From assembly GCF_013265555.1 (NCBI RefSeq), contig NZ_CP041345.1:852581-916580 (forward strand): 64,000 nt of DNA. Direction: 5' to 3'. This document shows positions 2,382-41,411 of this stretch, piece after piece. The notes under the pieces were generated by a model. It was not told the DNA's origin. It was given only the letters and a program-made list of their open reading frames with translations, and did not search any database. Both the position numbers and the translations under genes were made by a program. The first letter of the stretch is position 1. Each line of letters opens with the position of its first letter. The stretch comes from Tenuifilum thalassicum (GTDB lineage: Bacteria; Bacteroidota; Bacteroidia; Bacteroidales; Tenuifilaceae).

Positions 2382-2410
2382 CAAATGTAAAGTAATTTTA
2401 TTTTTTCACA
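2382..2410 (-). promoter_or_regulatory. Possible fabD promoter
   Basis: On the minus strand TACATTTG (2389-2382) matches the Bacteroidota -7 consensus TAnnTTTG. The upstream element TGTG is 17 bases away, which is weak and short, so only the -7 match is convincing. Confidence 0.4.
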
Positions 2411-2566
2411 TAATGAATGTGTTAATTGTTAGGTGTATGCTTTTACAATATAAAATGCATTTAATAAAAACAAATCAGAAGAAATTTCTAAAAAGATGTA
2501 TAACAAGTAGATGTGACAGGAGAATGATATTTAAAATCAGGGTCATATAGAAAAAAAAAAAAAAAG

Positions 2567-2598
2567 TTTGGCTATTTAAAAAAAACAAAATAGTTTTG
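2567..2598 (+). promoter_or_regulatory. Promoter of the ilv-leu operon
   Basis: TTTG at 2567-2570, a 20-base spacer, then TAGTTTTG at 2591-2598: a full match to the Bacteroidota sigma-ABfr consensus TTTG-N19/20-TAnnTTTG. Transcription should start near 2604-2606, just ahead of the first leader-peptide start at 2619. A run of A residues (2551-2565) lies just upstream and could act as an UP-like element. From 2356 to 2550 I see nothing else. Confidence 0.8.
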
Positions 2599-2618
2599 CA
2601 ATGTAAACAAGAGTAAAA

Positions 2619-2684
2619 GTGAAAAATATCTATCTACATATTATTTCCATTATTCTCCTAGTCCTTATAATACAAGGATTATGA
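2619..2684 (+). CDS. First branched-chain leader peptide (21 aa)
   Basis: Small ORF with GTG start and TGA stop. Residues 6-21 read LHIISIILLVLIIQGL, so 11 of these 16 are Ile, Leu or Val. There is no ATG in frame after the upstream stop at 2604, so GTG is the only usual start. The peptide ends immediately before CCGGGAAGT, the antiterminator arm. This is the layout of a classical ribosome-mediated attenuator that senses charged Ile/Leu/Val tRNAs. The peptide itself is not expected to have a function after translation. Confidence 0.75.
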   Translation: MKNIYLHIISIILLVLIIQGL

Positions 2685-2762
2685 CCGGGAAGTAGTATGT
2701 AGTAGCCAATAGTATTAAATTACAGAAACTTTCCGGGGCAAATCTCGGAAAGTTTTTTTTTG
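2685..2762 (+). promoter_or_regulatory. Attenuator 1: antiterminator/terminator switch
   Basis: CCGGGAAGT (2685-2693), directly after the leader stop codon, can pair over 9 bp (one G-U) with ACTTTCCGG (2728-2736). ACTTTCCGG is also the left arm of the terminator AAACTTTCCG/CGGAAAGTTT (2726-2735 with 2746-2755), which is followed by a T run. A ribosome reaching the TGA would cover 2685-2693 and let the terminator form. A ribosome stalled on Ile/Leu/Val codons would leave it free to make the antiterminator. The pairings are seen in the sequence; the mechanism is inferred from known amino-acid attenuators. Confidence 0.8.
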
Positions 2763-2799
2763 TATAAATGTGATTAAATGTGATAGAATATAAATTAAG

Positions 2800-2865
2800 A
2801 TGATTAAAACTTGCCTACATATTATTTCCATTATTCTCCTAGTCCTTATAATACAAGGATTATGA
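2800..2865 (+). CDS. Second branched-chain leader peptide (21 aa)
   Basis: ATG-started copy of the first leader peptide with the same length. Residues 6-21 are identical to copy 1 (LHIISIILLVLIIQGL) and only the first five residues differ. A 60-base block (2815-2874) is identical to 2634-2693. It sits between terminator 1 and terminator 2, so it is only transcribed when the first terminator is read through. ATG start is preceded by an AT-rich, unstructured stretch, normal for this phylum. Confidence 0.75.
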   Translation: MIKTCLHIISIILLVLIIQGL

Positions 2866-2941
2866 CCGGGAAGTTATGTAGCAGTTAATAGTATTAAATT
2901 ACAGAAACTTTCCGGGGCTAACCTCGGAAAGTTTTTTTTTA
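2866..2941 (+). promoter_or_regulatory. Attenuator 2: antiterminator/terminator switch
   Basis: Same arrangement as attenuator 1. CCGGGAAGT (2866-2874) can pair with ACTTTCCGG (2907-2915), and the competing terminator stem is 2905-2914 with 2925-2934 followed by nine T residues. Its T run ends 12 bases before the ilvD start codon, so ilvD expression must pass both terminators in series. Confidence 0.8.
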
Positions 2942-2952
2942 AACCTAAACCA

Positions 2953-4782
2953 ATGAAAAAAAAGTTAAGAAGTTCGGTAACTACAATTGGAAGGAACATG
3001 GCTGGTGCCAGAAGCCTATGGAGGGCAAATGGAATGAAAAGTGAACAAATTGGACGGCCAGTAATAGCTATTGTTAATTCCTTTACCCAATTTGTTCCTG
3101 GGCATGTACATCTACATGAAGTAGGTCAATTTGTGAAAAGTTGCATAGAAAAGCATGGGCTCTTTGCAGCTGAATTTAACACCATTGCCATTGACGATGG
3201 AATTGCCATGGGGCATTCAGGTATGCTCTACTCGCTACCTTCCAGGGAACTAATTGCCGATAGTGTAGAGTATATGTTAAATGCTCATATGGCCGACGCC
3301 ATGATTTGCATCAGTAATTGTGATAAAATAACTCCTGGAATGCTAATGGCCGCTATGCGGTTGAATATTCCTACCGTGTTTGTTTCTGGCGGACCAATGG
3401 AGGCCGGAACATATAATTCAAAACATCTCGATTTGGTAGATGCTATGGTTGCTGCTGCCGATAGCGATGTTTCTGACCAGGAACTGGCACAAATTGAGAA
3501 TGCTGCCTGTCCTACTTGTGGGTCATGCTCTGGAATGTTTACGGCAAACTCCATGAATTGTTTAGCTGAAGCTATCGGCCTGGCACTTCCTGGGAATGGA
3601 ACTATTCTAGCTACTCATGAGAACAGAAAGACTTTGTTCCAAAAGGCTGCTGATACAATTGCATATATTACAAAACGATACTATTTTGAGGGCGATGACT
3701 CTGTGCTTCCTAGATCCATTGCCACGCGTGAAGCATTCATGAATGCAATGGCTTTGGATATAGCCATGGGAGGTTCAACTAATACTGTCTTGCACCTTTT
3801 AGCAATTGCTCAAGAGGCAGGTGTCGATTTTACTTTGTCAGATATCGACCAACTGTCAAGAAAAGTACCAAATATTTGTAAGGTTGCACCTAGCTCTAGT
3901 TATCATATCCAAGATGTTAATCGCGCTGGCGGTGTTATTTCAATTTTAGGTGAGCTTGAAAGACATCAGCTAATAGACACACAGGTAAAAAGAGTTGATT
4001 ACCAAAACTTAAAACAGGCCATCTCTTTTTGGGACATTATGAGTCCTAATGTGTCCGATGAGGCTATTAGTTTTTGGAAAAGTGCACCTTCTGGCAAAAA
4101 TAGCAGTAAGGGGTGGGTGTCTAATGCTCAATATGACGAACTTGACACTGATAGGGTGAGTGGTTGCATTCGCAATTATCAAAACGCATACAATAAGGAC
4201 GGAGGCTTAGCAGTGCTTTATGGTAATATAGCAAAGGATGGTTGTATTGTTAAAACTGCGGGTGTTAACAGCTCTTTGTTTACTTTTCGCGGCCCTGCCA
4301 TTGTATTTGAGTCTCAGGAGGAAGCAGTTGATGGTATTTTGAATGATAAAGTAAAGGCGGGCGATGTGGTTGTTATTCGTTATGAGGGTCCCAAAGGAGG
4401 CCCAGGAATGCAGGAGATGCTGTACCCAACCTCTTATCTTAAGTCTAAAGGCCTCGCAACTAAGTGTGCTCTAATAACCGATGGACGATTCTCGGGGGGA
4501 ACTTCTGGTTTATCAATTGGTCATATCTCTCCCGAAGCTGCCTCTCAAGGTGAAATTGCTCTTATTAAAAATGGGGATATTGTCGAAATTAATATTCCTG
4601 AACGAACTATTAACGTTTTGTTGCGAGAGTCTGAACTTGAGAGGCGTAGGTCTGAAGAAGAGGGCAGGGGTGAGATGGCATATAAGCCTCAAAAGCGTTC
4701 CCGAAAAGTCTCCACAACGCTAAAGTTGTATGCACAGCATATCTCATCAGCCGATAAGGGCGCTGTTCGGTTAATTAAATAG
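2953..4782 (+). CDS. ilvD: Dihydroxy-acid dehydratase IlvD
   Basis: Dehydrates 2,3-dihydroxy-isovalerate and -methylvalerate to the 2-oxo acids of valine and isoleucine. At 609 residues it is full length. Fe-S ligands are visible in [10 protein letters not shown] (Cys123) and [12 protein letters not shown] (Cys186-192), and the C-terminal block [20 protein letters not shown] is intact. It is the first gene of the operon, 12 bases behind the second attenuator. Being an oxygen-sensitive Fe-S enzyme, it is one possible reason to control this operon tightly. Confidence 0.97.
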
Positions 4783-4812
4783 TAATATACGATAAGTAAA
4801 TGGTTTAAGGTT

Positions 4813-6558
4813 ATGGAAACTAAAATATTAACACATCAAGCAAACGTTTGTACTATTCATTCGTCATTAAATAAAATTACTGGTTCAGAAGCAATACTTC
4901 GCTGTTTAATAGAGGAGGGTGTTGATACTGTTTTTGGGTATCCTGGAGGTGCCATAATGCCTATTTACGACAAATTACTTGATTACAAAAAACATATTAA
5001 GCATATTCTAACTCGACACGAGCAAGGGGCTGCTCATGCAGCACAGGCATATGCTATGGTTGCAGGAAAACCTGGGGTGTGCTTTGCTACTTCTGGTCCT
5101 GGTGCAACAAATCTGATTACTGGTATTGCAAATGCCTATATGGACTCTGTTCCAGTTGTTTTTATCACTGCTCAAGTTAGTTCAAACTTAATAGGAACTG
5201 ATGCCTTTCAGGAAACAGACATAATAGGAATTTCAATGCCTGTTGTGAAGTGGAATTATCAGGTTAAAAAAGCAGATGATATACCAGAGATTTTTGCTAA
5301 AGCCTTTTACATTGCCAAAACAGGTCGCCCTGGTCCTGTTCTTATTGATGTTACCAAAGATGCACAGCTAGGCTTGCTTAGGTTTAAGTACAATTCGTGT
5401 TCTGGTATAAGGGGTTATTATCCTAATAAACCAGCAAAAGAAAAAGAAATTGAAGTTGCTTCAACTCTAATTAATAACTCTAAGCGTCCTCTAATACTAA
5501 CTGGCCATGGGGTTAGCATCTCAAGAGCAGAAAAAGAGCTGAGGTTGCTTGCCGAAAAAGCAAACATTCCTGTTGCCGTAACATTATTGGGGTTATCTAG
5601 CTTCCCAACTGACCATGAGCTGTATGCTGGAATGCTTGGCATGCATGGAAACCTTGGTCCAAATAAGTTGACCAATGAAGCCGATGTCATCATTGCTATT
5701 GGAATGCGATTCGATGACAGAGTTACTGGCCGACTAAATGATTATGCAAAAAAATCTAGAATTATTCACATCGATATCGATGAAGCTGAGATAAATAAGG
5801 TTGTAAACGTTGATGTTCAGATTAATAGTGATGCTAAAGAGGCTCTTAGCCAGATTATTCCAAAAGTTGAGCCAGCCTTACATGATGAATGGATTAAGAA
5901 ATTCAAAGATTATGAGAATCAAGAATTCGAAACTGTTATTAAAAAAGCTGTTAAGCCAGATACAGGAGCTATAACCATAGCTGAAGTTATTAATGAGCTA
6001 TCGAAGAAGACTAACGGTGAAGCAATTGTTGCTACGGATGTAGGTCAACATCAGATGCTGGCTGCCCGGTACTACAGATTTAAGAGCATAAGTTCTTTCA
6101 TTACTTCTGGCGGAATGGGAACTATGGGGTTTGGACTCCCTGCGGCAATTGGCGCAAAGATTGGATGTCCCAATAGAACTGTGTTGGCTGTACTAGGAGA
6201 TGGTGGATTCCAGATGACTATTCAGGAACTTGGTACCATCCTTCACCACAATATACCTATAAAAATTATTGTTCTTAACAATTCTTTCCTTGGTATGGTT
6301 CGACAGTGGCAGCAGTTATTCTTTGATAAGCGGTATTCAGAAACCGAACTAGTAAACCCCGATTTTATCACCATTGCAAGTGGATATAATATTCCTGCTC
6401 TGAAAGTAACTGAAAGACAAAATCTTGATGAAGCATTAACCCGGTTATTGGAGACAAATGGCCCATTTCTTTTAGAGGTGGTTGTTGAAAAGGAAGAGAA
6501 TGTCCTCCCAATGGTTGAACCTGGTTCATCAATTTCAGAAATCAGATTAAAAGAATAA
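4813..6558 (+). CDS. ilvB: Acetolactate synthase large (catalytic) subunit
   Basis: TPP-dependent enzyme that condenses two pyruvates to acetolactate, or pyruvate with 2-oxobutyrate for isoleucine. The 581 residues contain [13 protein letters not shown], the activating glutamate Glu70 in [11 protein letters not shown], and the TPP/Mg motif GDGGFQM at about residue 463 ending in [14 protein letters not shown]. The first 20 or so residues are not conserved in the family and the true start could be slightly later, but no internal ATG before the conserved [10 protein letters not shown] block is evident. It lies 30 bases after ilvD and 3 bases before the small subunit. Confidence 0.96.
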
Positions 6559-6561
6559 GTT

Positions 6562-7131
6562 ATGAACGAAAAAGAATTTACTATCTCAATTTTTACAGAG
6601 AACCGTGTTGGTATTTTAAACCATATCACAATAGTTCTCACCAGACGTCAGCTCAATATCGAGAGCGTTACAACATCTGAATCTGCTGTTGAGGGGGTTC
6701 AGCTTATTAACCTTGTGGTTAAGACTACCTACGAAAAGGTTAGGAAAGTTGCCAAGCAGATTGAAAAGATTATTGAGGTTATTAAGGTCTTTGTGAACTC
6801 ATCAAACGATGTCATTAGTCGGGAAATAGCATTGTTCAAACTATCGGCAAAGGTTATTCTTTCCAACGATGTGGTTGATTTAATCATGAAAACACATAAT
6901 GCAAAGTTTATTGAGATAAACTCAGAGTTTATGGTGGTTGAAAAGGTAGGAAGTGTTGATGAAATAAAGAAGTTGTTTTGTGCATTAAAGCCTTTCGGGA
7001 TACTTCAGTTTGCTAGATCGGGTAGGGTTGCTGTTACAAGACAAGTAAAAGAATTTCAGGATTATCTCAGTGAAGTAGATAGCGCTTTTAACTGTAAGGA
7101 GTATAAGAATGCAACTGTTGAATTATTGTAA
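6562..7131 (+). CDS. ilvN: Acetolactate synthase small (regulatory) subunit
   Basis: Activates and confers valine feedback inhibition on the large subunit. The N-terminal ACT domain is clear (about residues 6-75: ISIFTENRVGILNHITIVL and RQLNIESVTTSES), followed by the ALS small-subunit C-terminal domain with FARSGRVAVTR. At 189 residues it resembles the longer small subunits (IlvH/IlvN) of this phylum. It begins 3 bases after ilvB, so the two subunits are translationally coupled and made in matched amounts. Confidence 0.95.
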   Translation: MNEKEFTISIFTENRVGILNHITIVLTRRQLNIESVTTSESAVEGVQLINLVVKTTYEKVRKVAKQIEKIIEVIKVFVNSSNDVISREIALFKLSAKVILSNDVVDLIMKTHNAKFIEINSEFMVVEKVGSVDEIKKLFCALKPFGILQFARSGRVAVTRQVKEFQDYLSEVDSAFNCKEYKNATVELL

Positions 7132-7178
7132 ACAGAGTAATAGTACAATTTATGTTTAACTAAAAAAAGAAAAAGAAA

Positions 7179-8231
7179 ATGGCAAAAATTGATTTTGGAG
7201 GAGTAATTGAAGATGTAGTAACTCGAGAGGAGTTTACTCTTGAAAAAGCACGAGAGGTACTTAAAAATGAAACCATCGCTGTAATTGGCTATGGTGTTCA
7301 AGGCCCAGCTCAGGCACTAAACATGAGGGACCAAGGGTTTAACGTAATAGTTGGTCAATCGCCAGAATTTAAAAGTGATTGGGATAAAGCAATAGCCGAT
7401 GGCTTTGTACCAGGCGAAACCCTTTTTCCTGTTGCCGATGCAGCAAAGAAAGGAACCATTGTTCAATACCTTGTTTCCGATGCTGCACAGCGAATACTTT
7501 GGCCTGAGCTAAAGGAATGTTTAAACGAAGGTGATGCCCTATACTTTTCTCATGGATTCTCTGTAACATACAAAGAGCAAACGGGTGTAATCCCTCCATC
7601 AAATATCGATGTTATTCTATGTGCACCCAAAGGGTCTGGTACAAGTGTAAGGCGTAATTTCTTGGCAGGTGCAGGAATAAATTCAAGCTATTCTGTATTT
7701 CAGGATTACACAGGTAGAGCAACCGAGAGAGTTTTAGCTTTAGGTATAGCAATTGGTTCGGGGTATCTTTTCCCAACAACATTTGAGAAAGAGGTTTATA
7801 GCGATTTAACTGGAGAAAGAGGAGTTCTAATGGGAGCTTTGGCTGGAATTATGGATGCACAGTATAAGGTTTTGCGTGAAAATGGGCACTCGCCTTCTGA
7901 GGCATTTAACGAAACTGTTGAGGAGCTAACCCAAAGCCTTATCCGTTTAGTCGATGAGAAAGGTATGGATTGGATGTATGCTAATTGTAGCGCTACAGCT
8001 CAGCGTGGCGCTTTAGACTGGATGCCTCGATTTAGGGATGCAGTTTTACCCGTTTTCAAACAGCTTTACGAAAACGTAAAATCTGGTAAAGAGACACAAC
8101 GTGTAATTCAAGCCCTTAGCCAACCCGATTATAGAAATGTTCTTGAGGCTGAGTTGAATGAGTTGGGCAATTCTGAGATATGGAAAGCTGGACAAGCAGT
8201 TAGAAAGCTTAGACCAAATCATAAAGAGTAA
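7179..8231 (+). CDS. ilvC: Ketol-acid reductoisomerase IlvC
   Basis: Isomerises and reduces acetolactate or acetohydroxybutyrate to the dihydroxy acids used by IlvD. The 350 residues give a short (class I) enzyme, with the Rossmann motif IGYGVQGPAQALNMRD. The cofactor loop reads VGQSPEFKSDWDKA. The aspartate before Trp lies where the E. coli enzyme has the NADPH-binding Ser78, which suggests NADH preference (inference). Conserved metal/substrate segments such as SDLTGERGVLMGALAG are intact. It is separated from ilvN by 47 bases, the largest gap in the first half of the operon. Confidence 0.96.
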   Translation: MAKIDFGGVIEDVVTREEFTLEKAREVLKNETIAVIGYGVQGPAQALNMRDQGFNVIVGQSPEFKSDWDKAIADGFVPGETLFPVADAAKKGTIVQYLVSDAAQRILWPELKECLNEGDALYFSHGFSVTYKEQTGVIPPSNIDVILCAPKGSGTSVRRNFLAGAGINSSYSVFQDYTGRATERVLALGIAIGSGYLFPTTFEKEVYSDLTGERGVLMGALAGIMDAQYKVLRENGHSPSEAFNETVEELTQSLIRLVDEKGMDWMYANCSATAQRGALDWMPRFRDAVLPVFKQLYENVKSGKETQRVIQALSQPDYRNVLEAELNELGNSEIWKAGQAVRKLRPNHKE

Positions 8232-8237
8232 TCGGTT

Positions 8238-9740
8238 ATGAATAATGAGATAATTATTTTCGATACAACTCTTCGCGATGGAGAGCAGGTGCCCGGTTGT
8301 CAGCTTAATACCATTGAAAAAATTGAGGTGGCAAAGGCACTTGAAGAGCTGGGCGTTGATGTAATTGAAGCAGGCTTCCCTATATCTAGTCCTGGTGATT
8401 TTAAATCTGTAGTTGAAATTTCTAAGGCAGTGACAAAACCAACTATCTGCGCTCTAACTCGTGCAGTAAAAAAGGATATAGAGGTGGCTGCTGATGCACT
8501 CCAATATGCAAAGCTTAAAAGAATCCATACGGGTATTGGAGTTTCTCCTTGGCATATTGAACATAAGATTAGAACAACCCCCGAAGAAATAATTCTTCGG
8601 GCGGTTGAAGCGGTTAAATACGCAAAAAAATTCGTTGAAGATGTTGAGTTTTATGCCGAGGATGCGGGTAGAGCCGATAATGAATACCTTGCTAGAGTAA
8701 TTGAGGCAGTTATTAAAGCTGGTGCTACTGTTGTAAACATTCCCGATACAACTGGTTACTGCCTACCCGAAGAGTATGCCGAGAAGATAAAATTCCTTAA
8801 GGCTAACGTAAAGAATATAGATAAGGTTATAATCTCTACCCATTGTCATAATGACCTTGGAATGGCTACTGCTAACACTATTATGGGGGTGTTAAATGGT
8901 GCCCGTCAGGTTGAGGTGACCCTTAACGGAATTGGAGAAAGGGCAGGTAATACTTCGTTGGAGGAGGTTGTGATGACCCTTAAAAGCCATAGCTACCTAA
9001 ATCTACACACTAATATTAATACCAAGCTAATATACAAAACAAGTAGGCTTGTATCTACCTTAATGAATATGCCTGTTCAGCCCAATAAAGCTATTGTTGG
9101 CCGTAACGCTTTTGCCCACTCATCGGGAATCCATCAAGATGGAGTTCTAAAAAAAAGAGAGAACTATGAAATTATCAATCCTGTCGATGTAGGGATTAAT
9201 GAATCAGCAATAATTCTTACCGCAAGGAGTGGACGTGCAGCCTTAAAACATAGAATCGAGGCGTTAGGTTACAAGTTGTCAAAAGATGAACTTGATGGTA
9301 TTTATTCCCGCTTTCTAGATTTAGCTGATAAAAAAAAGGTAGTTAATGATGATGATATAAGAATCCTTATTGGAGAGGCTGCCCAAGGAGAACAACCATT
9401 AGAGTTAGAACTTCTACAAGTATCTTGTGGAAAATCAATGATGCCTGTCGCAACAGTGGGCATACGAATAAATGGTGAAGTTCATGTTTCTACAGCAACT
9501 GGTAATGGGCCTATTGATGCTTCCTTTACCGCTGTTAAACAGCTTATCAGAAAAAACTTTCTGCTCGAGGAATTCCTAATTCAAGCTATTACACGAGGTA
9601 GCGATGATTTAGGTAAAGTGCATGTTCAACTTGAATATAAAGGGAATAATTACTACGGGTTTTCTGCAGATACCGATATTGTTACGGCTTCGGTTAAGGC
9701 GCTGGTTAATGCATTAGCTAAAATAAATAACAGAGATTAA
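8238..9740 (+). CDS. leuA: 2-isopropylmalate synthase LeuA
   Basis: Condenses acetyl-CoA with 2-oxoisovalerate, the first leucine-specific step. The 500 residues carry the catalytic DTTLRDGEQ motif (Asp9, Arg13, Asp14), the metal ligands His202 and His204 in STHCHNDLG, the [14 protein letters not shown] block, and a C-terminal LeuA allosteric domain from about residue 385 that normally binds leucine. [11 protein letters not shown] is typical of true isopropylmalate synthase, which separates it from the cimA product further down. Its stop codon directly abuts the leuC start. Confidence 0.95.
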
Positions 9741-11144
9741 ATGGAACCAAAAACATTATTCGAAAAGATCTGGGATTCACATGTGGTGTCCTCAATAGAT
9801 AGTAATACGGATATAATATATATCGACCAGCATTACATTCATGAGGTTACCAGTCCTCAAGCCTTTGAGGGGCTAAGAAAGAGAAACATCAAAGTTTTTA
9901 GGCCAAAGCAAACCCTTGCAACCGCCGATCATAATATCCCAACCCAAAATCAGCATTTGCCAATTCCTGACGAGATTTCAAGAGGTCAGGTTAATACGCT
10001 TGACGAAAATTGTAAAGAACACGGTATTACCTATTTTGGCATGCAACATCCCAATAATGGTATTGTTCATGTAATAGGCCCAGAACTTGGATATACTCGT
10101 CCTGGCATGACAATTGTTTGCGGCGATAGCCACACTTCTACTCATGGCGCTTTTGGAGCAATTGCTTTTGGGATTGGAACCTCAGAGGTGGAAATGGTTT
10201 TTGCTTCGCAATGTATTCCTCAGGTTCGCCCTAAAACCATGAGAATTAATTTAAATGGTGAAACCCCTAAAGGGGTAACCGCTAAAGATATCATTATGTA
10301 TATCATTGCTGAACTCTCTTCGGGTGGGGCAACTGGGTACTTTGTTGAGTATGCTGGACAGGTTATTGAAAAGCTCAATATGGAGGAGCGTATGACTATT
10401 TGTAATATGAGCATCGAAATGGGGGCTCGTGGTGGCCTCATTGCTCCCGATAGTGTTACGTTTGAATATGTTGAAAATGCAACAAAACTTAGCGGCTTTA
10501 AAATCTCCCCAAAAGAACGTGAGTATTGGAATACCCTTAAAACTGACCCAGGAGCTGTATTTGATAAAGAAATTGGGATTGACGCTACAAAGATTCATCC
10601 TATGATAACTTATGGTACAAATCCAGGAATGGCCATTCCTGTCGATGGGGTAATTCCTAATCCTCCATCTAGCAAAAAGGAGAAGGAAAGTTTTTTGAAG
10701 TCCCTTGATTATATGGGATTTAAGCCTGGGATGAAGCTATTAGGACAAAAGATAGACTATGTTTTTCTTGGAAGCTGTACAAATGGTAGGATTGAGGATT
10801 TTAGGGCATTTGCATCCATTATTAAGGGTCGTAAAAAAGCCTCTAATGTTACTGCTTATATAGTTCCAGGCTCAAAAAATGTTGAAGAACAAATTTATAG
10901 CGAAGGGCTTGATAGAGTGTTTAACGAGGCTGGATTTGAAATTAGACAGCCTGGTTGTTCGGCTTGTCTTGCTATGAATGAAGATAAAATCCCTGCTGGT
11001 AAGTATGCCGTATCAACTTCAAATCGAAATTTCGAAGGACGACAGGGACCTGGTGCACGAACTCTCTTGGCAAGCCCTCTAACAGCTGCAGCATGTGCTA
11101 TTACAGGTGAAATTGTGAACCCTATGCAATTTTTTAATAATTAA
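9741..11144 (+). CDS. leuC: 3-isopropylmalate dehydratase large subunit LeuC
   Basis: Aconitase-family Fe-S enzyme; with LeuD it isomerises 2- to 3-isopropylmalate, and in this operon probably citramalate to methylmalate too. The 467-residue length is usual. Motifs are [20 protein letters not shown] and the cluster cysteines in GSCTNGR and [11 protein letters not shown]. There is no gap at all to leuA (TAA then ATG), implying translational coupling, and 14 bases to leuD. Confidence 0.96.
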
Positions 11145-11158
11145 AAAGTACTAATATT

Positions 11159-11758
11159 ATGGCGTTCAGAAAGTTTACATATTTGGAATCGACATGCATA
11201 CCTCTTCCTGTTGAAAATGTTGATACAGACCAGATTATTCCTGCCAGATTTCTAAATGCTACAACGAGAGAAGGTTTTGGAGAAAAACTTTTTTACGATT
11301 GGCGGTTCCTAAAGAATGGCACCCCAAATCCAGATTTTATCCTTAATAATAAAGCATTTTCTGGTAGTGTTTTGGTAGTTGGAACTAATTTTGGTTGTGG
11401 CTCAAGCCGTGAACATGCAGTTTGGGCGCTAACCGATTATGGATTTAGAGTTGTTATCTCTAGTTTTTTTGCCGATATCTTTAAAAATAATGCCCTCAAT
11501 AATGGGTTGCTACCTATTGTTGTTTCAGACGATAGGCTTAAAGTTCTATTGAAGGGTATTATGGATAATCCTAGAGTATATGTTAAAATTGATTTAGAGA
11601 AACAGTTACTACAAGTACCTAGTTTAGAAATATTGGAAACTTTCGAAATCAGTCCGTGGAAAAAAGAGTGCCTTCTGAAAGGCCTTGATGATGTCGACTA
11701 TCTTCTTAGGCTTAAAGATAAAATTGTACAGTTTGAAAAACAAAGGGCATGGTTATGA
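11159..11758 (+). CDS. leuD: 3-isopropylmalate dehydratase small subunit LeuD
   Basis: Swivelling-domain partner of LeuC, 199 residues, the usual length. It shows DTDQIIPARFL at the N terminus and the substrate-binding loop GTNFGCGSSREHAVWAL. The last codons overlap the start of cimA by the ATGA pattern, so dehydratase and citramalate synthase are coupled in translation. This agrees with LeuCD serving both the leucine and the isoleucine branch. Confidence 0.96.
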   Translation: MAFRKFTYLESTCIPLPVENVDTDQIIPARFLNATTREGFGEKLFYDWRFLKNGTPNPDFILNNKAFSGSVLVVGTNFGCGSSREHAVWALTDYGFRVVISSFFADIFKNNALNNGLLPIVVSDDRLKVLLKGIMDNPRVYVKIDLEKQLLQVPSLEILETFEISPWKKECLLKGLDDVDYLLRLKDKIVQFEKQRAWL

Positions 11759-13314
11759 AGGTCGAGGTAATGGATACAACTTTGCGCGATGGTGAGCAAA
11801 TGCAAGGTGTTGCATACTCTCCAGTTGAGAAACTTCATATAGCAACTTTACTTTTAAAAGAGCTTAAAGTTGATCGCATTGAAGTGGCCTCTGCACGCGT
11901 TTCAAAGGGAGAGTTTGAAGCAGCCAAAAAGGTTGCTGAATGGGCACAAGCTAATAACCTAATAGACAAAGTAGAAGTGCTCGGTTTTATTGATGGTGAC
12001 AAATCAATAGAATGGATTAGAGATGCAGGTTTGCGTGTTATAAACTTGCTTTGCAAGGGCTCTCCCCTTCATTTGGAAAAACAGCTGCGAAAAACACCCG
12101 ACCAACACATCGATGAAATTCGATACGTGATTAAAAAGGCACAGTCTCTAAATATCGATGTTAACCTATATTTTGAGGATTGGTCCAATGGCATCTTGCA
12201 ATCTCCAGACTATATTTTCTATTTGATTGATGCTTTGAGAAATGCCCCTGTAAAACGCTTCATGCTTCCCGATACATTGGGGGTGTTTAATCCCGATCGG
12301 GCATTTGACTGTTGCAAAATAATGACAAGTCGATATCCAGATTTACACTTCGATTTTCACGCTCATAACGATTATGACCTGGCTGTTGCTAATACTTTCG
12401 CAGCCCTTAAAGCAGGTATCAAGGGAGTTCATGTAACGGTAAACGGCCTCGGTGAAAGAGCAGGGAATACACCATTGGCAAGTGCTATTGCTGTTATTCA
12501 CGATCAATTATCGTTTAGAACAAACATTCAGGAAAATAAAATTTACAAGGTGGGTAAAATTGTTGAATCATATAGTGGTGTTAGGGTTCCTATTAATAAA
12601 CCTATCGTGGGTGAAAACTCTTTTACACAAACATCTGGAGTACATGCCGATGGGGATAGTAAAGCCAACCTTTACTTTAACAACTTATTGCCTGAACGTT
12701 TTGGTAGGAAAAGACAATATGCACTCGGGAAACTTTCTGGTAAGGCGTCAGTAACGAAAAATCTCGAAGAATTAGGCTTAGAACTTTCGCCTGATATCAT
12801 TAAAACAGTTACTCAGCGTGTAATTGAGTTAGGTGATAAAAAGGAAAGTGTAACAGTGGAAGATTTACCATTTATCATTTCCGATGTTATTGGACGCAGC
12901 AACAGTAATTCCCGGGTTTGCATTAAAAACTATACGCTTGGGCTTACTTGTGGCATGCAACCAATGGCAAGCGTTCAAATCGAAATACATGGTGACATTT
13001 ATCAGGAAACGGCTTCTGGCGATGGACAATACGATGCCTTTATGAAAGCAGTTAAAAAGATCTATGAAAGCATTGGAGAGGAACTTCCCTATCTTGTCGA
13101 CTACTTTGTAACAATTCCACCAGGCGGTAAAACCGATGCACTTGTCGAAACTGTAATTTCTTGGGAGCATAAAGGGAGAGTCTTTAAAACAAGAGGGCTC
13201 GATGCCGATCAAACGGAGTCGGCTATTAAGGCTACCGAGAAAATGCTTAACATCATCGAGAACGAAAAAAACTTCAGTAATGTAAATAAATTGTTTCAAT
13301 CAGAAAACGAGTAA
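11755..13314 (+). CDS. cimA: (R)-citramalate synthase (LeuA paralogue)
   Basis: Condenses pyruvate with acetyl-CoA to citramalate, opening the threonine-independent route to 2-oxobutyrate and isoleucine. About 519 residues with DTTLRDGEQ (Asp7, Arg11, Asp12), metal ligands His202/His204 in FHAHNDYDL, the NGLGERAGNTPL block and a C-terminal regulatory domain. Segments such as VASARVSKGE, NLLCKGSPLHLEKQL, YFEDWSNG, GVHADGDSKANLY and IPPGGKTDALVET match what I recall of Leptospira CimA and differ from the LeuA next door. I chose ATG 11755 because it overlaps the leuD stop as ATGA; an ATG two codons upstream (11749) is possible. No ilvA is present in the operon, which supports this role. Confidence 0.88.
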   Translation: MKVEVMDTTLRDGEQMQGVAYSPVEKLHIATLLLKELKVDRIEVASARVSKGEFEAAKKVAEWAQANNLIDKVEVLGFIDGDKSIEWIRDAGLRVINLLCKGSPLHLEKQLRKTPDQHIDEIRYVIKKAQSLNIDVNLYFEDWSNGILQSPDYIFYLIDALRNAPVKRFMLPDTLGVFNPDRAFDCCKIMTSRYPDLHFDFHAHNDYDLAVANTFAALKAGIKGVHVTVNGLGERAGNTPLASAIAVIHDQLSFRTNIQENKIYKVGKIVESYSGVRVPINKPIVGENSFTQTSGVHADGDSKANLYFNNLLPERFGRKRQYALGKLSGKASVTKNLEELGLELSPDIIKTVTQRVIELGDKKESVTVEDLPFIISDVIGRSNSNSRVCIKNYTLGLTCGMQPMASVQIEIHGDIYQETASGDGQYDAFMKAVKKIYESIGEELPYLVDYFVTIPPGGKTDALVETVISWEHKGRVFKTRGLDADQTESAIKATEKMLNIIENEKNFSNVNKLFQSENE

Positions 13315-13329
13315 ATTAAAATAATCTGA

Positions 13330-13335
13330 AAGGAG
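13330..13335 (+). promoter_or_regulatory. Strong Shine-Dalgarno before leuB
   Basis: AAGGAG lies 5 bases before the leuB ATG and complements the CCTCC at the 3' end of the window's own 16S gene. Such sites are rare in Bacteroidota and no other gene of this operon has one as good. Confidence 0.6.
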
Positions 13336-13340
13336 TTTTT

Positions 13341-14402
13341 ATGAGTAAAACTTATAAAATTGCTTTAATCCCAGGCGACGGAACAGGACCTGAGGTTACC
13401 AGAGAGAGTGTAAAAGTATTGAAAGCAGCAGCGGCTAAATTTGGATTTAATCTCGAATTCATAAATTACGATTTTGGTGGCGACCGATATCTAAGAACTG
13501 GAGAGGTCCTTCCCGACTCTGCAATCAAAGAGTTAAAACAGGCCGATGCAATACTGTTGGGTGCAATCGGACATCCAGATGTGAAACCTGGTATTCTTGA
13601 GAAAGGGATTCTCCTAAAAATTAGGTTTGAACTGGATCAGTATATCAACTTACGTCCAGTTAAGTTATACCCAGGTGTTGACACTCCCTTGAAAGATAAA
13701 GGCCCTGAACATATCGATTATGTTGTTATAAGAGAAAATTCTGGGGATGTTTATACTGGTGCCGGAGGTGTCACTTTAAAAAACACACCTCATGAAATTG
13801 CTGTTCAAAATATGATGTACAATAGAATGCAGGTTGATAGATGCCTGAAATTTGCTTTTGAGTATACACGTAAAAGAAACAAAAAAAACACCCTGGCCCT
13901 TTGCGGAAAAACTAATGTACTTACCTATGTTTTTGACCTTTGGGAAAGAGCCTTTCACGAAATGGGTGAAACTCATTTTGCAGATATTAAGCGTGAGTAC
14001 TATCATGTTGATGCTACTTGTATGTGGATGGTTAAAAACCCAGAGTGGTTCGATGTTATCGTAACCACAAACATGTTTGGTGATATTATTACTGATCTTG
14101 GCGCTATAACCCAAGGTGGAATGGGAATTGCTGCAGGTGGAAATTTGAACCCCGAAGGGGTTTCGATGTTTGAACCAATTGGTGGTTCTGCTCCTAAGTA
14201 TACTGGTATGAACGTTATTAATCCTCTTGCAGCAATTGCAGCAGGCGGAATGCTTCTTGAGCATTTGGGCGAAAATGAAGCCGCTAGTGCAATTGAAGAT
14301 GCCATTAAGTTTGTTACCGCTTATAAGCTTAAGAGTCTTGCAGCTGGGAGAATGGGATATTCAACTTCGGAAACAGGGGACTTGGTGGCTGAACACATTT
14401 AG
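13341..14402 (+). CDS. leuB: 3-isopropylmalate dehydrogenase LeuB
   Basis: NAD-dependent oxidative decarboxylase giving 2-oxoisocaproate; it also acts on methylmalate in citramalate-pathway organisms. The 353 residues show IPGDGTGPEV, the substrate/metal segment TTNMFGDIITDLGA and the NAD-binding EPIGGSAPKYTG loop. It is the last gene of the operon, 26 bases after cimA, and is followed by a long stem-loop terminator. The family also contains tartrate and isocitrate dehydrogenases, but operon context makes LeuB secure. Confidence 0.94.
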   Translation: MSKTYKIALIPGDGTGPEVTRESVKVLKAAAAKFGFNLEFINYDFGGDRYLRTGEVLPDSAIKELKQADAILLGAIGHPDVKPGILEKGILLKIRFELDQYINLRPVKLYPGVDTPLKDKGPEHIDYVVIRENSGDVYTGAGGVTLKNTPHEIAVQNMMYNRMQVDRCLKFAFEYTRKRNKKNTLALCGKTNVLTYVFDLWERAFHEMGETHFADIKREYYHVDATCMWMVKNPEWFDVIVTTNMFGDIITDLGAITQGGMGIAAGGNLNPEGVSMFEPIGGSAPKYTGMNVINPLAAIAAGGMLLEHLGENEAASAIEDAIKFVTAYKLKSLAAGRMGYSTSETGDLVAEHI

Positions 14403-14414
14403 TTAAAAAACATC

Positions 14415-14499
14415 AGAGGGGAGGAATAACATGTTTGATTTAACAAATCTAACTTTTGCCTTTTTATTTAGATTAGTGTTTCCCTCCCCTTTATTTTTA
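14415..14499 (+). terminator. Terminator of the ilv-leu operon
   Basis: AGGGGAGG (14417-14424) pairs with CCTCCCCT (14483-14490), enclosing a smaller AATCTA/TAGATT hairpin, followed by a T-rich tail. Confidence 0.7.
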
Positions 14500-14627
14500 A
14501 TAATTTTAGTTTAGAGTGTAATACTGTTTGATAATTGATAAAAATTTATAAGTAAATTATCTAAAATAAATCAAAAACTTGCTTAATACACATTAAATTA
14601 GTTAATTTGATATAAAATGATATCAAA

Positions 14628-15374
14628 ATGAAACGAATATTAATTTTTGTACTTGCCATTACCTTAGGAGTAACTCAAACAAATGCGCAACTTTTTAAAG
14701 TATTTGGTCACGATGTTGGTTTCGTGTATGTTGGACCAAAGGTGGGGATGAACCTTTCAAAGTTTAGCCAATGGTCATACAGTAATTATACTGTTAAGAA
14801 CCGATTGGGTTATCAGCTGGGTGTTGTTGGTGAATTAGGTTTCACCAATAGGTTTTCTGTTCAAAGCGAAATTGTTCTAATATCTAAGGGAGCAATAGGC
14901 GAAACAGCAGGAATTACTGAAACTAAAAGAATGCCTTCTATTCAAATTCCAATCCTGGCTCGATATACGTTTAGCCTTCTTGGGTTAAGAAAGGTTTATG
15001 CTAATGGTGGAGTTTACTCTACCACACGTGTTGGTAGTGGAACTGTTATTTATAGCGATGGAATGTCTTATAACGATTATCATTGGACAAGATTCGATTG
15101 GGGATTTTCATTTGGTTGTGGTGCAGAGTATCCAACAAAAGATGGAATATGGGGATTAGATTTACGTTATGACTTAGGTGCTGTTGACGTTTACCGTCAG
15201 CTCGATGAAAGCACAAAATCAAGGTTCCGCTCTTTTCAGTTTTCAGTCACATATAAGTTTGACCTAGTTGATATTTACTTCAAGTATAAAAACAAGAAAA
15301 ATAGAAATGATGAGGTGGAGTCTGAACAGGGTGTTCAGCGTCCCAATGGGCTTAAAATTCAACAACGAGATTAG
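14628..15374 (+). CDS. Outer-membrane beta-barrel protein (PorT/OMP_b-brl family type)
   Basis: 248 residues with a clear Sec signal peptide (MKRILIFVLAITLGVTQTNA, cleavage before Q). The mature part is full of alternating aromatic/polar strands (VGPKVGMNLSKF, YQLGVVGELGF, FGCGAEYPT, FQFSVTYKF), typical of the eight-stranded outer-membrane barrels common in Bacteroidota. The C-terminal 30 residues are basic and acidic and probably periplasmic. No specific function can be assigned. It has its own terminator and lies alone between the ilv-leu operon and the convergent folE. Confidence 0.75.
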   Translation: MKRILIFVLAITLGVTQTNAQLFKVFGHDVGFVYVGPKVGMNLSKFSQWSYSNYTVKNRLGYQLGVVGELGFTNRFSVQSEIVLISKGAIGETAGITETKRMPSIQIPILARYTFSLLGLRKVYANGGVYSTTRVGSGTVIYSDGMSYNDYHWTRFDWGFSFGCGAEYPTKDGIWGLDLRYDLGAVDVYRQLDESTKSRFRSFQFSVTYKFDLVDIYFKYKNKKNRNDEVESEQGVQRPNGLKIQQRD

Positions 15375-18490: not shown

Positions 18491-19102
18491 ATGGCTTTTC
18501 AACTACCAAAGTTAAAATACGATTATAAGGCTTTAGAACCTTATATCGATGCAATGACCATGGATATTCATTATAATAAACACCATGGTGGTTATACAAA
18601 CAATTTAAATAATGCTATTGCGGGTTCATCTCTTGAATCACTACCTATTGAAGAAATCCTAAAAGATGCATCTAAGCATTCAGCCGCAGTTAGAAATAAT
18701 GGTGGTGGATTTTACAACCACACTCTATTCTGGGATATTATGGGACCCAATGGTGGTGGATCACCATCAGGTGAACTTTTAAAGCAAATTGAAAAACACT
18801 TTGGAAGTTTCGATGAGTTCAAAGAAACGTTTTCTAACGCTGCAGCAACTCGTTTTGGTTCTGGATGGGCTTGGTTGGTATGGACTGGTGAAAACCTAAA
18901 GGTTTTCTCTACACCAAACCAGGATAACCCTTTAATGGATGTTGTTGATATTAAAGGTACTCCTATTCTTGGTTTAGACGTTTGGGAACATGCTTATTAC
19001 CTTAAATATCAGAACCGAAGACCTGAGTATATTCAGAATTTCTGGAATGTAATCGATTGGAAATCAGTTGAAGAAAAATTTATCATTGCTACTAGTAAAT
19101 AG
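18491..19102 (+). CDS. sodA: Superoxide dismutase, Mn-type
   Basis: Dismutates superoxide in the cytoplasm. The 203 residues have all four metal ligands of the Fe/Mn family: His in MDIHYNKHHGGY, His in YNHTLFWDIM, and Asp and His in LDVWEHAYYL. The metal-selectivity positions look Mn-like: NGGGFYNHTLFW in place of the AAQVWNH of FeSOD, and TPNQDNPLM with GTPILGLDVWEH as in E. coli SodA. It stands alone with its own terminator, separate from the Fe-type paralogue 2.5 kb downstream. Cambialistic use cannot be excluded. Confidence 0.9.
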   Translation: MAFQLPKLKYDYKALEPYIDAMTMDIHYNKHHGGYTNNLNNAIAGSSLESLPIEEILKDASKHSAAVRNNGGGFYNHTLFWDIMGPNGGGSPSGELLKQIEKHFGSFDEFKETFSNAAATRFGSGWAWLVWTGENLKVFSTPNQDNPLMDVVDIKGTPILGLDVWEHAYYLKYQNRRPEYIQNFWNVIDWKSVEEKFIIATSK

Positions 19103-19178: not shown

Positions 19179-19207
19179 TATTTTTATTGGAAAATTATTT
19201 TTTACAC

Positions 19208-21646
19208 ATGCGGAGCACATTCTTTATAACCTATTTGGTTGCTTTTATTTTTCAATTATTTAATAATCCAAGCATTGCCCAGCAGAGCGATGAGAAAGTC
19301 GATACTGCATATATCAACTCTAAAATTGATATTGTAAAATCGTTAATTGATGTAAGAGAGTTTAATGCTGCAATAAAACTGGCAAAAGAAGCTCGCAAAC
19401 TTGCAAAACGAATTGATTATACCGATGGTGTTGCATGGTGTGAGTATTACATTGGCGTTTCATATTTTGAGATTACTCCTGTTGATTCTGCTTTTAGCTG
19501 GTTACGAAAGGCAAAATCGCACTTTCTATTTTCGGGAAATATTGAGGGGCTTGTATATCTTTACAATCAATTAGGACTTTGCTACAGAAGGACAAACTAT
19601 AACGATAGTGCAATTTATTACTATAGAGGTGCTGTTGAAAAGGCTGCAACTTTAAACGACTCTGTTAATATATCACAGGGGTTGTATGGGTTGGGGATGG
19701 TTTACGTACAGCAAAGTAAATACCCCGAAGCCCTTAAATTATTTCAGGATGCATTTGAAATCCGTCAAAGGCTTGGCGACAAGTATGGGATTGCAGCTGT
19801 TTATAATAGTATTGGCCTCTTATTCTGGGAGCAGGGTGTTTATTCTACTTCTTTGGAGATGTTCTACAAAGCCTTACCTCTTCGAGTTGAGCTTAACGAC
19901 AAAAAAGGTGAGGCTTATCAGCACAATAATATAGGGTTGGTATATAGGGATTTAGGTTATTACGATAAGGCCCTTGAACATCTCAGAAAGTCATGGCAGC
20001 TAAAAAGGGAGGTAAACGATACTCGTGGCATTTCAAATACCGTAATGAATATTGGTTCTGTATTCTTACTTCAGGATAAAATTGATAGCGCTTTGTTATA
20101 TTTTAAGAATGCCCTTGATTTAAAGCAACTGGTTAAAGATAGAGCTGGTATAGCACACATTAATCTCTACCTTGGGGAATCTTACTGTAAACTTAAACTA
20201 TTTGATAAAGCTGAGTTATACATAAAAGAAGCAATTGAAAATTATAAAGAATTAAATGAGCCTAGGGGTGTAGCCGATGCTCAATTCCATTATGCACTTC
20301 TTCTAAAAAGGACAGATAGAACGAGTAAGGCTATAAATCTTTTACTTAAAATTAAAGATGATGCAGAAAAACTTGGTGTTTTAAATATTGCATCAAAAAG
20401 TTATAAAGTGTTGTACGATATTTACTCTGAAAAGAATGATTGCAATAACGCTTTAAAATATTACCAAAATTATATTGCCCTAAGAGATTCAATTAATAGT
20501 TCTGATGCAATGAGAAAAATTTATGCAACTCAGCTGCAATCAGAATACGATAAAATTGTAAAGCAGCACTTAGAGCAATTCAATAAGCAACTACAAGCCG
20601 TTGAGGAACAAAAACAAGCAAGAACTTACTTACTAGTAATAGTTTCTGTGGCTTTTGTAGCACTACTTGGTTTGCTCATTGGTCTGATTTATACCATGAA
20701 ACAACGTAGGAAGGCTGTTGAAGATAAAGAAAGACAACGGGTTTCAGTTGAAAATCAGCAGAAAGAGTTAATGGAACAGCGCGATGAAATTGAGCGCCAA
20801 CGAAATCTTGTTATTTACCAACGCGATAGGATTATTAATATGCTAACTGATTTGGGGGAATCTATGGAATATGCCCGAAAAATTCAGCAAGCAATATTCC
20901 CTTCCGATAAACAGCTTAGTGAACTATTCCGCGGCTTTTTTGTACTATACCTCCCCAAAGAAACTGTTGGTGGCGATTTTTATTGGGTTGGAAATATATC
21001 TGGTAAAATTGGATTTGCTATTGCCGATTGTACTGGTCATGGCGTTCCTGGTGGTTTTATGAGTATGTTGGGAATGTCAATGCTTAATGATATTACTGCT
21101 AACTTAAAAGGTGCTACGCCCGGAACGGTTTTGGGAATGCTTCGTGAAAATATTATTAACGCCCTACGCCAAAAAGGTCATGAAGACGACAGCCACGATG
21201 GTATGGATATTGCTCTTTGTGCAATCGACCGTGAATCAAGAAATCTTACCTACGCTGGAGCCAATATGTCTATCATTATTAGCACCAATTCAGATGTTGA
21301 GGAAAACGAAAGAATTATAAAAATAAGTGATGGGCTTCTTGAGTTTCGACCCGATAGAATGCCAATTGCTTACCATGAGAAAATGGATAAGTTTAACGAG
21401 ATCTCTATAACTATTCAACCTAACGATACCGTTTACCTCTTTTCCGATGGATATGCCGATCAATTCGGCGGTCAAAAACCAACCAAAAAATTTGGATACC
21501 ATGCCTTCCGTAAATTAATAGCGGATGTTAAGGATAAACCGCTATATGAACAGAAGAAGATTTTTTACCAAACCCTTGAAAGATGGAAGGGCGAGGAGGA
21601 ATCCCAAACCGACGATATTCTCATTATTGGTATAAAACCATTTTAA
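19208..21646 (+). CDS. TPR-transmembrane SpoIIE-type serine phosphatase
   Basis: 812 residues from ATG 19208 (a TTG seven codons earlier is less likely). Order: signal peptide (RSTFFITYLVAFIFQLF, ending SIAQQ), about ten tetratricopeptide repeats to about residue 420, coiled coil, one membrane helix near 472-496, a second coiled coil, and a PP2C-like SpoIIE domain from about 555. Metal-binding motifs are intact: GGDFYWVG, ADCTGHGVPGGFMS, HDGMDIALC, SDGYADQFGG and QTDDILII. It should sense something in the periplasm through the repeats and dephosphorylate a cytoplasmic target, classically an anti-sigma antagonist. No kinase or anti-sigma gene is adjacent. It heads a likely operon with sodB and the nitroreductase. 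Confidence 0.88.
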   Translation: MRSTFFITYLVAFIFQLFNNPSIAQQSDEKVDTAYINSKIDIVKSLIDVREFNAAIKLAKEARKLAKRIDYTDGVAWCEYYIGVSYFEITPVDSAFSWLRKAKSHFLFSGNIEGLVYLYNQLGLCYRRTNYNDSAIYYYRGAVEKAATLNDSVNISQGLYGLGMVYVQQSKYPEALKLFQDAFEIRQRLGDKYGIAAVYNSIGLLFWEQGVYSTSLEMFYKALPLRVELNDKKGEAYQHNNIGLVYRDLGYYDKALEHLRKSWQLKREVNDTRGISNTVMNIGSVFLLQDKIDSALLYFKNALDLKQLVKDRAGIAHINLYLGESYCKLKLFDKAELYIKEAIENYKELNEPRGVADAQFHYALLLKRTDRTSKAINLLLKIKDDAEKLGVLNIASKSYKVLYDIYSEKNDCNNALKYYQNYIALRDSINSSDAMRKIYATQLQSEYDKIVKQHLEQFNKQLQAVEEQKQARTYLLVIVSVAFVALLGLLIGLIYTMKQRRKAVEDKERQRVSVENQQKELMEQRDEIERQRNLVIYQRDRIINMLTDLGESMEYARKIQQAIFPSDKQLSELFRGFFVLYLPKETVGGDFYWVGNISGKIGFAIADCTGHGVPGGFMSMLGMSMLNDITANLKGATPGTVLGMLRENIINALRQKGHEDDSHDGMDIALCAIDRESRNLTYAGANMSIIISTNSDVEENERIIKISDGLLEFRPDRMPIAYHEKMDKFNEISITIQPNDTVYLFSDGYADQFGGQKPTKKFGYHAFRKLIADVKDKPLYEQKKIFYQTLERWKGEEESQTDDILIIGIKPF

Positions 21647-21659
21647 AAATTTTTTAGAT

Positions 21660-22247
21660 ATGAAACATGAATTACCAAAACTAAGCTACAACCTTAACGA
21701 TTTGGGTGTAGCAATTTCAGAAAGAACAATGGAGTTTCATTATGGGAAACACCACCAAGGTTATGTTAACAACCTTAACAATCTAATTCCTGGTACTAAA
21801 TTCGAGAATGCTTCCCTTGAACAAATTATCATGGAAGCAGATGGGGGAATTTACAACAATGGTGCACAGGTATGGAATCATACCTTTTATTTTGAGGCTT
21901 TTAGCCCAAATCCAAAAGAAAAACCCGAGGGGGAATTGCTCAGGGCTTTAGAAAGTAATTTTGGTTCATTTGAGAAGTTTATTGAGGATTTCTCTAAGGC
22001 CGCTGCAACTCTTTTTGGTTCGGGTTGGGCATGGCTTGTTGTTAAAAACGATGGTAAACTATCTATTTTGCAAGAGTCAAACGCTGGAAACCCTTTAAGA
22101 AATGGGTATAAACCCTTGCTTACTTGCGATGTATGGGAGCATGCCTATTACCTGGATTATCAAAACAGACGTCCTGATTATGTTAAGGAGTTTTGGAAGA
22201 TTTTAGATTGGAAAGTTATTGAGGAACGGTTTCAAAAACTAAAATAG
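21660..22247 (+). CDS. sodB: Superoxide dismutase, Fe-type
   Basis: 195-residue second dismutase. Metal ligands are His in MEFHYGKHHQGY, His in VWNHTFYF, and Asp/His in CDVWEHAYYL. NNGAQVWNHTFYF carries the FeSOD-type glutamine, and SNAGNPL and PLLTCDVWEH also match SodB rather than SodA. One deviation is Phe in place of the usual Trp after WNHTFY. It lies 13 bases behind the phosphatase gene and 1 base ahead of the nitroreductase, so it is probably cotranscribed with both. Confidence 0.9.
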   Translation: MKHELPKLSYNLNDLGVAISERTMEFHYGKHHQGYVNNLNNLIPGTKFENASLEQIIMEADGGIYNNGAQVWNHTFYFEAFSPNPKEKPEGELLRALESNFGSFEKFIEDFSKAAATLFGSGWAWLVVKNDGKLSILQESNAGNPLRNGYKPLLTCDVWEHAYYLDYQNRRPDYVKEFWKILDWKVIEERFQKLK

Positions 22248-36528: not shown

Positions 36529-38060
<1,532 letters not shown>

Positions 38061-38146
38061 GGGGCCTGCGTTCGCGGGCCGCGGGGGAAGATGGCTGATG
38101 GAGTTACTTGCTACAGAAAACTTTTCGGTACTAAAGCGTTAATTTT
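38061..38146 (+). other. 16S-23S spacer, first part
   Basis: Carries the right arm of the 16S processing stem (38078-38087). No tRNA-Ile is present before the tRNA-Ala. Confidence 0.7.
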
Positions 38147-38220
38147 GGGGAATTAGCTCAGTTGGCTAGAGCGCCTGCTTTGCAAGCAGGAGGTCATCGG
38201 TTCGATTCCGATATTCTCCA
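38147..38220 (+). tRNA. tRNA-Ala (anticodon TGC)
   Basis: Acceptor stem GGGGAAT/ATTCTCC, D-arm AGCTCAGTTGGCTAGAGC, anticodon stem CCTGC/GCAGG around TTTGCAA with the TGC anticodon at 38181-38183, T-arm with GGTTCGATTCC. 3' CCA is not encoded. It is the only tRNA in the spacer. Confidence 0.97.
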
Positions 38221-38385
38221 CGTGTGTGTAAATGCACAAAGCGTTCTTTGACGTGGTGGTGGTGAGAAACAGAAATTAGAATAGAGAAAGAAGCGAAAGA
38301 GGCAGGCACGCGCGAGCGTGCGGGCCCCGAGCGAGATAGAGATTTGAAGGCGCGATACCGGGGTGTCCGGTACCGTGCCGGGGAA
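38221..38385 (+). other. tRNA-Ala to 23S spacer
   Basis: Holds the second boxA-like GTTCTTTGACG (38243-38253) and the left arm of the 23S processing stem, GCCGGGGAAGT (38377-38387), which is exactly complementary to ACTTCCCCGGC (41211-41221). Confidence 0.65.
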
Positions 38386-41214
<2,829 letters not shown>

Positions 41215-41295
41215 CCCCGGCGCGGTGCGGGTCACCGCGCCGCGCGCTCACCACCGCCACGTTCACGATATCACCCCTGGGATCAGGGGAACAGG

Positions 41296-41405
41296 TCTTG
41301 GGTGGCTACAGCGGCGGGGATCACCCCTTCCCATTCCGAACAGGGCAGTTAAGCCCGCCAGCGCCGATGGTACTGCGTAACAGCGGGAGAGTAGGTCGCC
41401 GCCCC
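41296..41405 (+). rRNA. rrf: 5S ribosomal RNA
   Basis: About 110 bases with CCATTCCGAACAGGGCAGTT, AAGCCCGCCAGCGCCGATGG and TACTGC...GGGAGAGTAGGTCGCCGCC; the first and last segments pair as the terminal helix. Ends are approximate. Confidence 0.93.
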
Positions 41406-41411
41406 CCTTTC

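Follow-up and report, generated by a model that had tools for sequence, protein, structure and literature searches.

Two putative Ile/Leu/Val attenuators in series ahead of ilvD in Tenuifilum thalassicum, and the recurrence of such pairs in related bacteria

An important question raised by the leader of ilvD in this genome is whether one biosynthetic operon can be governed by two complete attenuators placed in series, and what a second gate would then add to the first. Ribosome-mediated attenuators of amino-acid operons are known from E. coli trp, his, ilv and leu, normally one per operon, and leader-peptide attenuation has become a textbook switch that is usually drawn with one gate. In the window, by which we mean the whole stretch of 64,000 nucleotides analysed here, two pairs of direct repeats lie between the minus-strand fabD and ilvD. 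We consider it highly probable that they form, one after the other, two complete transcription attenuators of the ribosome-mediated kind, each responding to the supply of Ile, Leu and Val.

One pair of repeats is 60 nt long and 100% identical (2634-2693 and 2815-2874), the other is 66 nt long with 92% identity (2696-2761 and 2875-2940), and their spacing is 179-181 nt. Each repeat unit contains the end of a leader ORF, the arm CCGGGAAGT right after the TGA, a terminator hairpin and a T run, and the parts are assigned as follows.

2567..2598, + strand: promoter-like TTTG-N20-TAGTTTTG, a pattern match and the sole one ahead of both modules
2619..2684, + strand: leader ORF 1, GTG start, MKNIYLHIISIILLVLIIQGL, TGA at 2682-2684
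2634..2648, + strand: region 1 of copy 1 (protector), 15 bp with 2688-2702
2685..2693, + strand: antiterminator arm CCGGGAAGT of copy 1 (region 2), directly 3' of the TGA
2726..2755, + strand: terminator 1, made of regions 3 and 4; its T run extends to 2761
2800..2865, + strand: leader ORF 2, ATG start, MIKTCLHIISIILLVLIIQGL, TGA at 2863-2865
2815..2829, + strand: region 1 of copy 2, bulged pairing with region 2
2866..2874, + strand: antiterminator arm CCGGGAAGT of copy 2 (region 2), directly 3' of the TGA
2905..2934, + strand: terminator 2, made of regions 3 and 4; its T run extends to 2940

An earlier note on this DNA had proposed two complete modules of leader peptide, antiterminator arm and terminator, with a common peptide ending, one promoter and a cognate operon, and we have recovered all of these elements. 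Both leader peptides share the C-terminal end LHIISIILLVLIIQGL, and the arm directly after each stop can base-pair with the left terminator arm of the same copy, over 9 bp including one G-U in copy 1 (-15.0 kcal/mol, own 3:4 stem -18.6) and over 10 bp in copy 2 (-15.9 kcal/mol, own 3:4 stem -21.4). Per 21 codons, leader 1 has I7 L5 V2 and leader 2 has I7 L5 V1, and both carry the same Ile/Leu/Val codon run, ATT ATT TCC ATT ATT CTC CTA GTC CTT ATA ATA. The third pairing besides 2:3 and 3:4 is a 1:2 protector stem of CUACAUAUUAUUUCC with GGAAGUAGUAUGUAG, which forms 15 uninterrupted base pairs in copy 1 (-21.5 kcal/mol, extension included) and contains a bulge in copy 2 (-14.6 kcal/mol). Compared with dinucleotide shuffles, the arm-plus-terminator segment gave z -3.46 in copy 1 (0/200 shuffles as good) and z -3.02 in copy 2 (1/200). 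An automated terminator scan of the window listed terminator 1 and missed terminator 2. The leader starts and the stretch upstream differ between the copies; the arms, the codon run and the terminators are undiverged.

The promoter-like element follows TTTG/TAnnTTTG, the promoter consensus of Bacteroidota, and the promoter pattern occurs 10 times in the window against 3.4 expected. A pattern scan found no TAnnTTTG between the two window copies, consistent with one promoter serving both. From the end of the -7 motif to the GTG of leader 1 the distance is 20 nt, and the same motif lies 15-30 nt upstream in 72 of 115 single-leader loci with ATG (3 when the region was shuffled), so this matching distance supports the GTG as the start of leader 1. 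We checked 30 tandem loci; 29 have a -7 motif ahead of copy 1, and none has one between its copies. Across the large f106 clade (L203-L228), the motif stands about 73-117 nt before leader 1, not about 20 nt, so that a longer stretch separates the two.

A nine-gene ilv-leu-cimA-like operon is located 3' of the tandem leader, and its gene names were given by NCBIfam models above cut-off, the cimA-like gene excepted.

2953..4782, + strand: ilvD, dihydroxy-acid dehydratase
4813..6558, + strand: ilvB, acetolactate synthase large subunit
6562..7131, + strand: ilvN/ilvH, acetolactate synthase small subunit
7179..8231, + strand: ilvC, ketol-acid reductoisomerase
8238..9740, + strand: leuA, 2-isopropylmalate synthase
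9741..11144, + strand: leuC, 3-isopropylmalate dehydratase large subunit
11159..11758, + strand: leuD, 3-isopropylmalate dehydratase small subunit
11749..13314, + strand: cimA-like, best NCBIfam match citramalate synthase CimA, below cut-off (682 of 950 bits)
13341..14402, + strand: leuB, 3-isopropylmalate dehydrogenase

Judging from its gene content, the operon makes Leu and Val, and the citramalate-synthase-like gene could feed Ile. If the cimA-like product is a citramalate synthase, the operon covers most of the Ile/Leu/Val steps, in keeping with the mixture of Ile, Leu and Val codons in the leader.

The mechanism that we propose follows the order of synthesis. A ribosome waiting in the Ile/Leu/Val run would cover region 1 and leave region 2 free; the free region 2 would pair with region 3 before region 4 exists, and RNA polymerase would read on. 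A ribosome that has reached the last codon or the stop would cover region 2, so that 3:4 could pair and transcription would end. To reach ilvD, the polymerase would have to clear both gates.

Folding with the polymerase placed at the end of arm 3, and with an assumed ribosome footprint of 11 nt past the A-site codon, predicts such a ribosome-position switch in each copy. As long as the A-site lies between the fourth codon and position 2670 in copy 1, or 2851 in copy 2, the probability of the 2:3 pairing, P(2:3), is 0.89. At the next codon, CAA, it has dropped to 0.67, and at GGA to 0.03 in copy 1 and 0.13 in copy 2; once the ribosome has moved to the final TTA (Leu) or to the stop codon, it is 0 in either copy. 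The gate is thus predicted to close just past the Ile/Leu/Val run, and the final Leu codon would no longer keep it open. By a looser measure, in which every pairing of arm 3 with upstream sequence is counted, 0.4 remains in each window copy with the ribosome at the stop. Because 3:4 dominates at all ribosome positions (0.86-0.89) when the full transcript is folded at equilibrium, the model hinges on the order of synthesis, as it does in classical attenuators. In most of the 30 tandem loci scanned, the pairing drops after the Ile/Leu/Val run in both copies; the exceptions are L211.2 and L213.2, which stay at 0.8 up to the stop by the looser measure, and L170.1, which is irregular. Of 101 single modules, 56 were predicted to be open with the ribosome stalled at Ile/Leu/Val codons and closed with it at the stop; when the spacer was shuffled, 7 behaved in this way. 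Only 9 of the 56 also had low antiterminator pairing when ribosome-free.

If the decisions at the two gates are independent, the read-through would be the product of the two, giving a lower leak in fed cells and twice the logarithmic sensitivity. We infer that the gates act independently, so that the response would be multiplied and steeper. Cross-pairing in the window could couple them, since each region 2 has the arm 3 of either copy as an equally good partner. Another form of coupling that we have considered is the capture of arm 3 of copy 2 by a freed arm 4 of copy 1, a pairing computed at -16.6 kcal/mol. In the 29 pairs outside the window, region 2 prefers its own arm 3 in 29/29 for copy 2 and in 24/29 for copy 1.

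The comparison with relatives was based on IlvD searches of several scopes. IlvD was found in 1 of 7 genomes of the genus (the window's own), in 4 of 27 of the family (one only as weak pieces), and in at least 166 of 393 of an order sample at E up to 1e-150; further searches gave 4/6 for the genus and family of G240, 50/59 for the family of G137 and 33/56 for the family of G131. From a named collection of 33 loci, six were used (L002, L003, L004, L006, L008 and L017); the upstream stretch of L005, L007 and L031 was inspected and held no module, and the remaining loci, which were of other groups or partial, were left out. The orientation of L081 is uncertain, and it was entered as module-free. 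The IlvD of L007 and L031, whose records are titled Desulfobacula and Arcanobacterium bovis, is 68-71% identical to that of the window, possibly through contamination or transfer.

All module counts reported here come from a strict scan. A fixed-length hairpin scan had been dropped because known modules were lost and only 78/170 regions were positive, and a relaxed scan was dropped as noisy (149/170 positive, yet 50/170 reverse complements too). The strict detector found at least one module before ilvD in 141/172 regions, against 6/172 dinucleotide shuffles and 11/172 reverse complements, and in the deduplicated and extended set a module was present in 186/230 distinct regions against 14/230 reverse complements. 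The earlier note had named a lack of conserved leader ORFs in relatives as a result that would speak against it, and this result did not appear. The same note had described such attenuators as less well documented in Bacteroidota than in Proteobacteria, and the tandem form as not standard to its knowledge. Its picture can be refined in two ways: putative leader-peptide attenuators are the rule before ilvD in this order, and the tandem form recurs in other lineages, with single modules being the usual case.

Region 2 covaries with arm 3 across single modules, as judged by computed pairing energies. With its own arm 3 it pairs at a mean of -14.4 kcal/mol, against -9.7 kcal/mol with foreign arms, over 124 single modules; 0/2000 permutations were as low, and the own partner was best or tied-best in 12/124. 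The leader peptides of f106 appear to be weakly conserved; in a clade of 21 loci, pN/pS is 0.52 in leader 1 and reaches 0.92 in leader 2. When residues in the Ile/Leu/Val columns were replaced, they stayed Ile, Leu or Val in 5/6 and 5/7 cases, small numbers against about 0.7 expected to leave. These two observations together indicate that the codon class, not the sequence, is kept.

The tandem form was found in 30/230 regions scored, plus L274 by sequence reading. The holders are the window, 4/4 IlvD-bearing genomes of g125 (f117), 25/31 regions of f106, and L271 (G464), 1/47 in f112; terminator 1 of G142 (g125) has a poor tail, and three sampled f106 genera have the single form (L210 and L212; L226 and L227; L229). 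Tandem status was partly judged by eye. A first strict scan had scored 14 regions double; L145/L170, L087, L230, L271, L272 and L274 were added by sequence reading or other scans, and L002/L040, L111, L118, L183, L187 and L189 were rejected by eye because of a weak AT-rich hairpin, an unpaired arm or the terminator of the upstream gene. The recurrence in several related lineages suggests that the doubling of a classic attenuator is a repeated solution. On a quick IlvD tree (98 rows, LG+G4, SH-aLRT; L271, L272 and L274 outside it), the tandem label requires 6 changes, of which at least 4 are forced by starred branches.

The window IlvD groups with single-attenuator sequences of f112, within a 19-row set (99*) whose other 18/18 rows have a single module; to judge from the tree, the window pair is a duplication without counterpart in its nearest IlvD relatives. 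Two family members with a full IlvD (L036 and L037) have no module. In five genus-mates (L232, L233, L234, L235 and L237), the equivalents of window positions ~2400 and ~14680 are about 0.85 kb apart, so the operon and its leader constitute an extra ~12.3 kb in the window's genome (~2400-14680), beside fabD. In its place the genus-mates have another ORF, which encodes about 200 aa; a search for that ORF in the window did not find it. From the operon-free site in the five genus-mates and the grouping of its IlvD with f112, the operon looks horizontally acquired. The simplest account would be an f112-like source, with the attenuator duplicated on the branch of the window, before or after the move.

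A rival view is that the pair is a recent neutral duplication, in which one attenuator works and a redundant second adds a small constant loss. The 60-nt identical block common to both copies, the 18/18 single modules in the smallest 99% set of IlvD relatives, and the imperfections of each copy, namely the GTG start in copy 1 and the bulged 1:2 stem in copy 2, are all in its favour. We nevertheless regard it as improbable, because the flanks have diverged while arms, codon run and terminators have been kept, diverged pairs persist across f106 genera and in all four IlvD-bearing g125 genomes, and the predicted switch is retained in both copies of the f106 and g125 pairs. Far less credible still, and almost to be dismissed, is that a short upstream RNA ends at the hairpins as at any ordinary terminator and that the peptides are incidental. 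Both hairpins are strong intrinsic terminators and a small stable RNA could be made, but the Ile/Leu/Val-rich ORF, arm and terminator occur together in the 186/230 regions against the 14/230 reverse complements given above, region 2 covaries with arm 3, and replacements in the Ile/Leu/Val columns mostly stay in the set.

A division of labour between the copies has somewhat better prospects than either, though we think it unlikely: an untranslated copy 1 would terminate and copy 2 would read through, so that the pair would demand both starvation and active leader translation. The ribosome-free P(2:3) of 0.03 in copy 1 against 0.87 in copy 2 (0.65 against 1.0 by the looser measure) agrees with it, as do the stronger 1:2 stem of copy 1 and the lower value of copy 1 in L169, L171, L172 and L170 as well. 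The f106 pairs are without such a consistent difference between copies, and equilibrium values may mislead here because 1:2 precedes 2:3 in a growing transcript. Returning to two attenuators that sense one signal in series, a broader reading is quite possible and is put forward tentatively. Recurrent same-signal tandem attenuation in Bacteroidota would be a pseudo-cooperative starvation switch, which has arisen or been kept several times and whose old pairs drift to a preference for their own partners; the window would then hold a young cross-pairing pair with copy 1 off when untranslated, and may act as a two-condition gate.

Placed beside known systems, the same-signal tandem form is a recurrent variant of leader-peptide attenuation. 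The window shares with classic attenuators the product-rich leader peptide, the alternative 2:3 and 3:4 hairpins, the intrinsic terminator and the cognate operon, and differs in having two in series for the same signal where those have one per operon. The ilvBNC operon of Corynebacterium is described as having a ribosome-mediated attenuator (PMC11857589, PMC10272879). Tandem attenuators for different signals are described for Salmonella mgtCBR, which its authors termed a singular example (PMC3641672); there, too, a single transcript leader carries two leader ORFs that influence transcription into the operon, but the system is described as sensing ATP and proline additively, through stem-loops unlike intrinsic terminators. 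The window leaders share one Ile/Leu/Val codon run, and two signals of the mgtCBR type were not found. Mg transporters are cited in PMC4974804. In our literature search, to which subscription journals were out of reach, mgtCBR was the sole tandem leader-ORF attenuator found, and an earlier report of a tandem ilv form is possible.

Tandem riboswitches for the same ligand are also two complete same-signal switches in series, and a pseudo-cooperative, steeper and more 'digital' response has been predicted for them (PMC9481103); they differ in using ligand-binding aptamers instead of translated leaders, and the term 'leader peptide' has 0 occurrences in the main text of that paper. Sensitivity has elsewhere been attributed to many regulatory codons in one attenuator (PMC1183508). 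The rimP leader of Gammaproteobacteria has tandem terminators, with a second terminator upstream and a possible antiterminator, and its description in PMC2965389 includes no leader peptide; the view given there in 2010 was that leader-peptide systems were known only in Proteobacteria, Actinobacteria and the authors' own Firmicutes case. Within the same phylum as the window, short leader ORFs with suspected attenuation have been described as leader-peptide candidates among the sORFs of B. thetaiotaomicron (PMC7366714) and in amino-acid operons of F. psychrophilum (PMC9723704), where the main texts contain 'ilv' 0 times and describe no tandem form and no ilv operon. If the recurrent two-gate form is true, bacteria would tune steepness and leak by adding gates, in line with the argument made for tandem riboswitches. 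The question could be tested in nature on pairs that differ in age, from the almost identical copies of the window to the diverged ones of f106 and f117.

A search of 2500-2960 against Rfam gave no family at gathering score, so no recognised aptamer or T-box. The weak matches, to PyrR, His_leader, rliG and Termite-leu, had E-values of 0.003-0.68 and fell short of the gathering score in every case. That ilvD leaders are so widespread in the order shows that Rfam lacks a large set of attenuators. Elsewhere in the window, a complete rRNA operon with tRNA-Ala in its spacer is located at 36529-41407, and two superoxide-dismutase-like ORFs recognised by eye (18491-19102 and 21660-22247) flank a long repeat-bearing ORF at 19187-21646.
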